A stretch of DNA of 42,847 bases. Source: Chlorobium sp. (GTDB lineage: Bacteria > Bacteroidota > Chlorobiia > Chlorobiales > Chlorobiaceae). Of the stretch, positions 19,650 through 42,847 are shown piece after piece (the first letter of the stretch is position 1; each line of letters opens with the position of its first letter). Location: NCBI GenBank assembly GCA_005843825.1, contig SZXX01000017.1, forward strand, positions 1 through 42,847. Reading direction: 5' to 3'. Below the pieces are notes generated by a model, which ran no database searches, had not been told where the DNA came from, and was given only the letters and a program-made list of their open reading frames with translations. A program made the translations under genes and the position numbers.

Positions 19650-19964
19650 CGCTGGGTAATTTATTTTTTACCTACTCTGTTCGGTTTTCGGTAACCCCGT
19701 TTATCTCGTTCCTCCGAATGACAGATTCAAGTGCAAAAAAAAAATTTACAAAGGCCGGACGCTGCCGCCAGAAAGATTAATCTCAATAGAAAGTATTTGC
19801 AGAGAGCGAATGAATCACCTTCTGTAAATAAAGGCAAAGATGAGGGAATCGTAATACATACGATGCAATGCCATTAACAGTGTAATTTAAAAAAATAAGT
19901 TCTGAAAAAACAGATATCAGGAGCGAGTAAACCGGGAAAAGGAAAGATCTCTTTCAATGACTAT
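19650..19964. other. 315-base spacer without a gene
   Basis: AT-rich DNA upstream of the metalloprotease (minus strand) and downstream of the HAD gene. I see a small perfect dyad TCGTA-5-TACGA at 19849-19863 and an A10 run near 19737-19746, but no gene, terminator or family repeat that I can support. Confidence 0.55.
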
Positions 19965-29817: not shown

Positions 29818-29909
29818 TACAGTAGTCTTTTGAAAAGTCGCTGTTTTTTTTTAATATTCGAGAGCTGATGAAGCTGTCAATTATCAAACAACAAAAATCA
29901 TATCCTGCA

Positions 29910-30137
29910 ATGAAAAAATTTCTCGTATTCCTCTTTCTTTTAAGCTCAGTTTCTTTCGTAGGCTGTGCAAAAAAAACTGAAGCTCCTGCAGAAGCTCCTG
30001 CAGCAGCACCTGCAGCACCAGCAGCAGAAGCCGCACCTGCAGCACCTGCAGCACCAGCAGCAGAAGCAGCACCAGCAGCACCTGCAGCACCAGCAGCAGA
30101 GGCAGCACCTGCAGCACCTGCAGCACCTGCAAAATAA
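29910..30137 (+). CDS. Small Ala/Pro-rich lipoprotein with 12-residue repeats
   Basis: A 75-residue protein beginning MKKFLVFLFLLSSVSFVGCA, which is a lipoprotein signal with the cysteine at position 19 (the lipobox, FVGC, is atypical in having Phe at -3). After AKKTEAPAEAP the mature part is almost only Ala, Pro and Glu, with a 12-residue unit (EAAPAAPAAPAA) repeated three times. Such tails may span the periplasm or bind cell wall. An in-frame start 14 codons upstream would destroy the signal and is rejected. It is followed by a strong terminator. The function is unknown. Confidence 0.7.
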   Translation: MKKFLVFLFLLSSVSFVGCAKKTEAPAEAPAAAPAAPAAEAAPAAPAAPAAEAAPAAPAAPAAEAAPAAPAAPAK

Positions 30138-41710: not shown

Positions 41711-42847
41711 GTTTCAATCCACGCGCCCGCGGGGGGCGCGACTGCCGAGGTTGTTGATGAGAAAACGGGTGAGGTGTTTCAATCCACGCGCCCGCGGGGG
41801 GCGCGACCATCGGCATCAATGAGCTTGACCGGTGTTGTCCGGTTTCAATCCACGCGCCCGCGGGGGGCGCGACAGAGTATCGAGTTGACGCTCAGAATCC
41901 GAGAACAGTTTCAATCCACGCGCCCGCGGGGGGCGCGACGAGCGATGTAGAGCAGGAGCCTATACCGTTTGTAGTTTCAATCCACGCGCCCGCGGGGGGC
42001 GCGACCTCGCGTTGATGAGCCGTAGATGACATACGCTCCTGTTTCAATCCACGCGCCCGCGGGGGGCGCGACGTAAAAACTCAAGGAGATTAGCGGGATC
42101 GTTGTCGTTTCAATCCACGCGCCCGCGGGGGGCGCGACTATTTGAAACAACAGGAGCAGATAACCCCAAAGGTGTTTCAATCCACGCGCCCGCGGGGGGC
42201 GCGACCTCCCGTTGATGAGCCGTGGAAGACATACGCTCCTGTTTCAATCCACGCGCCCGCGGGGGGCGCGACCATCAATGAGGCTTTCCGGCAGGCTCAG
42301 CAGCTGGTTTCAATCCACGCGCCCGCGGGGGGCGCGACACGTTATACGCCGAGTCTGGGTGTTCCTGATGTTAGTTTCAATCCACGCGCCCGCGGGGGGC
42401 GCGACTTAGAGGAAGGCGAATAATGAGAGAACAGTTATTTGTTTCAATCCACGCGCCCGCGGGGGGCGCGACAGTATTCAAAGAGTGCCTTTAAGCCGTC
42501 ATAAGTGTTTCAATCCACGCGCCCGCGGGGGGCGCGACCTCTCTGTTGTGATTTTATAGAGTATAAAAACTTGTTTCAATCCACGCGCCCGCGGGGGGCG
42601 CGACATAAAACAATGGTTTACGGCAAGATTAAAAGATTAGTTTCAATCCACGCGCCCGCGGGGGGCGCGACACCCCTAGCGTCACGTTCATAGAGACGTT
42701 GTATCTGTTTCAATCCACGCGCCCGCGGGGGGCGCGACGCGACAGATGCATTCTTCAAAATTGACCTTCAAGGTTTCAATCCACGCGCCCGCGGGGGGCG
42801 CGACTTTCCGCCTCAGGGCGGTTTTCATTGTGATGGAGTTTCAATCC
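41711..42847 (-). CRISPR. Type I-C-like CRISPR array, 17 full repeats, open at the right edge
   Basis: Seventeen identical 32-base repeats (first 41711-41742, last full one 42773-42804) and a truncated 18th at 42838, with 17 spacers of 33-35 bases. The repeat starts GTTTCAATCCACGCGCCC and ends GGGGGGCGCGAC, with a CGCGCCC/GGGCGCG hairpin; this is the type I-C family. In that family the transcribed strand ends ATTGAAAC, so transcription should run leftward and the leader and cas genes should lie beyond the right edge. No repeat is mutated, including the leftmost (expected oldest) one. No cas gene is in the window. Spacers 5 and 8 are near-duplicates. Confidence 0.98.

Follow-up and report, generated by a model that had tools for sequence, protein, structure and literature searches.

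How two spacers of a single CRISPR array came to share almost all of their letters is the question raised by one end of a 42,847-nucleotide Chlorobium contig (the whole stretch is hereafter called the window). The array and the two spacers, which we refer to as twins, are as follows:

41711..42847, minus strand: type I-C CRISPR array with 17 identical 32-nt repeats, GTTTCAATCCACGCGCCCGCGGGGGGCGCGAC as read on the plus strand
42006..42040, minus strand: spacer 5, the older twin, AGGAGCGTATGTCATCTACGGCTCATCAACGCGAG, reading as ERMSSTAHQRE of microvirus VP2
42206..42240, minus strand: spacer 8, the newer twin, AGGAGCGTATGTCTTCCACGGCTCATCAACGGGAG, likewise reading as ERMSSTAHQRE of microvirus VP2

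The plus-strand letters of the twins are CTCGCGTTGATGAGCCGTAGATGACATACGCTCCT (42006-42040) and CTCCCGTTGATGAGCCGTGGAAGACATACGCTCCT (42206-42240). An earlier note on this DNA had described them as nearly identical, with normal repeats and normal intervening spacers, and this description holds: 32 of 35 bases are common to both, the mismatches fall only at positions 4, 19 and 21, the full repeats in the window are identical (17/17), and the two spacers in between are of normal length. Elsewhere, the window contains a small ORF (29868-30137) that resembles a lipoprotein and has an extended run of Ala-Pro-Glu repeats and, on the minus strand at 19669-19701, a match to the DUF805b cis-regulatory RNA (Rfam).

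The array runs past the contig end of the window. At the end of contig C27 (locus L011) of the same genome, four further identical repeats adjoin a leader stretch and a type I-C operon, and from the identical repeats and the matching contig ends we infer that the window's contig (C38) and C27 carry parts of one array. The repeats known in this genome (G000) number 21, all of them identical. Type I-C repeats usually end in GTGGATTGAAAC; from this ending and the direction of the operon, the crRNA strand is the window's minus strand, so that the leader (newer) side is at the contig end and, of the twins, the one at 42006 is older than that at 42206. The leader side itself lies beyond the window end, on C27, together with the cas operon. 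This type I-C operon is complete and in the same genome as the array, with the order cas3-cas5c-cas8c-cas7-cas4-cas1c-cas2, and its Cas5c, Cas8c (Csd1), Cas7/Csd2, Cas1c, Cas4 and Cas2 products exceed NCBIfam cut-offs. In the assembly cas3 is represented by two overlapping ORFs (L011 898-1167 and 1160-3148), with the break inside the HD domain (L011:898-3148, contig C27), which reflects either a one-base frameshift or an assembly error. Given this frameshift, interference by the array today appears uncertain, while past acquisition is unaffected. The genome also encodes the FMO bacteriochlorophyll a protein (PF02327 at G000:C55:1985-3034, E 7.9e-227), and the host is therefore a green sulfur bacterium (Chlorobiaceae).

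In the crRNA orientation, frame 2 of both twins translates to ERMSSTAHQRE, with all three differences at codon position 3 and no amino-acid change. For three substitutions placed at random, the probability that none of them alters the peptide of the VP2 frame is 0.016, which by itself is only modest evidence. The same figure speaks against an origin of the pair within the array, whereby one spacer would have been duplicated by recombination and one copy would then have gained three mutations. Array rearrangement through repeat recombination is common, which speaks for duplication; however, all 21 of 21 repeats are identical, making three mutations in one 35-nt spacer versus none in more than 600 nt of repeats an unlikely outcome, the spacers flanking the twins are not duplicated, and silent-difference twins occur in other species as well. 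We consider duplication followed by mutation very improbable.

Frame 1 would point to a different source. There the twins read GAYVIYGSSTR and GAYVFHGSSTG, which by eye are FG-GAP-like, and the two spacers might have been taken from a single gene with paralogous repeats, such as one encoding an FG-GAP repeat protein. In this frame, however, all three differences change an amino acid, and our search of the host's own genome outside the array returned no related site within 3 mismatches, whereas in the VP2 frame the twins encode one and the same peptide, which matches over 100 viruses. On the strength of the own-genome search, the Microviridae VP2 matches and the comparison of frames, an FG-GAP repeat gene was dropped as the source, and we find an origin in paralogous repeats scarcely credible.

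A search of both spacers against viral sequences, as the earlier note had proposed, gave matches to the VP2/DNA-pilot gene in dozens of gokushovirus-like Microviridae records, in the same VP2 site of related microviruses and at one site per genome. Using a degenerate pattern for the ERMSSTAHQRE motif we recovered 103 IMG/VR contigs, mostly of 4-5 kb and again with a single site per genome; in the lone double match (L050), a contig of 4,412 nt, the two copies are separated by 4,289 nt, which represents the terminal redundancy of a circular genome. Because the VP2 site occurs once per virus genome, two related viruses are the most likely origin of the twins, as opposed to two locations within a single gene. 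The earlier note had suggested that they were taken from related but different sequences, being either phage variants or paralogous repeats; the former is borne out, with VP2 (DNA pilot) of gokushovirus-like Microviridae as the source gene, and the latter falls with the single VP2 motif per virus contig.

Among the viruses, all four bases are seen at each of the three positions at which the twins differ. IMG/VR contained no exact protospacer for either twin, and the exact two-spacer pattern was likewise without a match there. The site closest to the older twin (L071) has 2 mismatches and is flanked by GGC rather than TTC, and that closest to the newer twin (L018) has 3 mismatches and a TTC flank. 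Several single viruses match both twins, with 3-5 mismatches to each (3 and 3 in L086), and none matches either exactly.

We conclude, with a probability of roughly 0.9, that a single type I-C system acquired the twins on separate occasions, each from one of two related gokushovirus-like Microviridae, at the same VP2 site. The VP2 protein motif hardly varies, such that protospacers of different viruses differ only at silent third positions. Both source viruses would actually have infected this lineage, the newer twin would have been captured from a variant after the older twin, and the crRNAs of both twins may still act on such viruses.

Across 86 genomes of the family, the VP2 coding pattern was found in this array and in none of the other 85. 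Its one match in GTDB contigs is L115 (JAAXWV010000175.1), a 3.8 kb contig of a Roizmanbacteria MAG that is possibly a misbinned microvirus. When the same 86 genomes were searched for a microvirus major capsid protein (MCP), the own genome gave none and a single contig was found, in G078. Contig L358 (G078:C163, 4,373 bases), from this other genome of the same genus, carries Rep, MCP, pilot protein and VP3-like genes (PHROGs) and is a candidate green sulfur bacterial microvirus. By PHROGs, the contig closest to the newer twin, L018 (IMGVR_UViG_3300022690_000794), encodes a DNA-pilot protein, a major capsid protein, a VP3-like structural protein and a replication initiator. It also lies within 8 mismatches of 12 spacers from six Chlorobiaceae genomes, the most among the 303 contigs.

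Chance similarity of the twins is excluded. Random TTC-adjacent 35-mers drawn from two different microviruses come within 3 mismatches of each other with a probability of 2e-5 per pair, or about 0.004 expected pairs among 21 spacers, and a likeness of this degree is far rarer still between unrelated sequences. A microvirus genome has about 172 TTC sites, and for close-relative viruses the corresponding figure is about 1/172 per pair; with such viruses as the source, one twin per array is unremarkable by chance re-sampling.

The VP2 motif is directly preceded by Phe-Gln, the whole site being FQERMSSTAHQRE. Whichever codons are used, TTY CAR, the coding sequence of Phe-Gln, includes TTC in one of two registers. 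In the first, T[TTC]AR, the spacer starts with AG or AA, which is the case for both twins; in the second, [TTC]CAR, it starts with CA, as in a spacer of G034 (CAGGAGCGCATGTCCAGCACAAGTCATCAGCGTGAG). Because TTY CAR always spells TTC, almost all viruses of the group present a protospacer at the VP2 site, and TTC was present in one or other of these adjacent registers at the VP2 sites of 88 of 100 viruses (46 in the first, 42 in the second). Taking the homologous virus sites of 32 microvirus-matching spacers from the family, TTC is the commonest 5' flank with a weight of 10.45 (the next, TTT, has 5.55), while on the 3' flank of the same 32 its weight is 1.39. The type I-C PAM TTC thus appears to be recovered from homologous virus sites. 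Capsid spacers of the own genome, G034 and G020 likewise lie directly after Phe-Gln. In Rep, five spacers from four genomes fall in one common register. The downstream residues are Met-Lys in some viruses (ATGAAR always has GAA, which is TTC on the other strand) and Val-Lys or Thr-Lys in others, and because of the latter, codon locking of the PAM can only be suggested for Rep.

When the 21 spacers of this genome were translated and scanned against the 303 microvirus contigs, with shuffled-spacer controls, the twins were recovered together with further microvirus matches:

42073..42106, minus strand: spacer 6, DNDPANLLEFL, a VP3 (internal scaffold-like) motif; score 56 versus a maximum of 47 among 168 shuffled; virus flank TTC or TTT
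42139..42173, minus strand: spacer 7, PLGLSAPVVSN, probable major capsid protein; score 46, p about 0.006; weak nucleotide match with 10 mismatches
42672..42706, minus strand: spacer 15, IQRLYERDARG, a microvirus major capsid protein motif; score 56; virus flank TTC or TCC
42805..42837, minus strand: spacer 17, HHNENRPEAE, a borderline VP3 match; score 39, p 0.054; 7 mismatches

At least five spacers of the array are therefore predicted to target microviruses, namely two in VP2, two in the capsid gene (one of them probable) and one in the scaffold gene. In the other Chlorobiaceae type I-C arrays, some of which were covered only in part, a score of 46 was reached by 28 of 380 spacers versus 1 of 377 shuffled, and when coding-sense ORFs alone were considered in all genomes, by 33 of 401 spacers and no shuffled ones. 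These spacers were scanned locally against fetched virus contigs, a set chosen partly by VP2 and MCP motifs. Under a model that draws random TTC protospacers from the same viruses, about 53% would be detectable, and the real microvirus share is therefore probably above the 8% detected. A strand bias is not claimed: the microvirus matches of the own array are all in coding sense, but those of other genomes are mixed.

Related pairs are present in other arrays of the family. In G060, two neighbouring spacers have 7 nucleotide differences and no amino-acid change in Rep ESAAYVARYV. In G020 (L348, spacers at 534 and 931), a pair with 2 differences, both silent, reads GISETTLRAIE and has no microvirus match; by eye this peptide is helix-turn-helix-like. 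A second G020 pair has 4 nucleotide and 2 amino-acid differences. Two minus-strand spacers of G037 (L354, at 1861 and 3726) contain the same 34 nt and are 34 and 37 nt long, pointing to one protospacer that was captured a second time and not to duplication within the array. Several Chlorobiaceae arrays thus show repeated capture at homologous sites. Three sites recur between genomes, VP2 (4 spacers, 3 genomes), MCP RDARGGTRY (5 spacers, 4 genomes) and Rep ESAAYVARY (5 spacers, 4 genomes), and together they hold 14 of the 33 detected spacers.

This recurrence raises the possibility that, in Chlorobiaceae type I-C arrays, spacers at a few motif- and PAM-constrained microvirus sites are favoured or selectively retained, the twins being one result. 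We counted 28 same-site pairs versus a simulated mean of 8 and maximum of 24, and an approximately twofold excess persisted when the simulation was conditioned on conserved sites (23 versus 11, p 0.02; 22 versus 11.4, p 0.04), yet it was gone at the strictest conservation cut (9 versus 8, p 0.36). Furthermore, spacers from variable sites cannot be recognised, the source viruses may be more distant than those simulated, and spacers that share an array or come from related genomes are only partly independent. Once conservation is controlled, same-site sharing exceeds the random-acquisition model only modestly, and we entertain site preference as a tentative possibility. Bolder, and in our judgement rather unlikely, is the proposal that arrays across the Chlorobiaceae preferentially hold sites at which the genetic code fixes both the motif and the PAM (Phe-Gln in VP2 and MCP, with Met-Lys in Rep as a possible further case), such that a virus could not escape by a silent PAM change; the arrays would then amount to family-wide immunity, with silent twins as the mark of repeated capture. 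If site preference is true, it would show an array reaching targets that viruses cannot easily mutate.

With two separate acquisitions as the preferred reading, the twin pair is a readable record of a photosynthetic anaerobe that encountered related ssDNA phages on more than one occasion, storing one and the same gene site on each. Such silent twins may serve as a simple sign of repeated encounters with a virus family, even where the virus genomes are not known. Microvirus spacers that are missed at the nucleotide level can be found by searching translations of 10-12 residues.

Recurrent Microviridae encounters were reportedly described in Legionella by Deecker et al. in 2021. Legionella spacers match capsid genes of Gokushovirinae/Microviridae, which has been read as a sign of recurrent encounters (PMC5654357); the gokushovirus capsid targets are as found here, in another host, and no silent twins are seen in the available part of that report. 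During laboratory adaptation of a Legionella type I-C system, for which the PAM is given as GAA (the reverse complement of TTC), spacers from the same protospacer were acquired twice, in independent events (PMC5071653); this was an identical target on one plasmid as opposed to the homologous sites of two viruses in the present case. For green sulfur bacteria of Trout Bog, the same bacterial group, long-standing spacer turnover against viruses has been described in a text that makes no mention of microviruses, gokushoviruses or ssDNA (PMC8163819). Silent-difference twins, microvirus sites shared by several green sulfur bacteria and a codon-locked PAM were not found in the open-licence papers searched, and novelty is to that extent unproven. 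Closest to our system is the type I-C array of Chlorobium clathratiforme, in which two spacers matching microviruses were reported in 2021 (PMC8226683). It resembles the present array in bacterial group and subtype, and its repeat is one base different (GTCGCGCCCCCTGCGGGCGCGTGGATTGAAAC); as far as the accessible main text goes, that report concerns single matches in one species, without twins, a silent pattern, shared sites or a PAM analysis. Microvirus spacers in Chlorobium were thus already known, and what is new here is the cause of the twins, the silent-only pattern and the codon-locked PAM.
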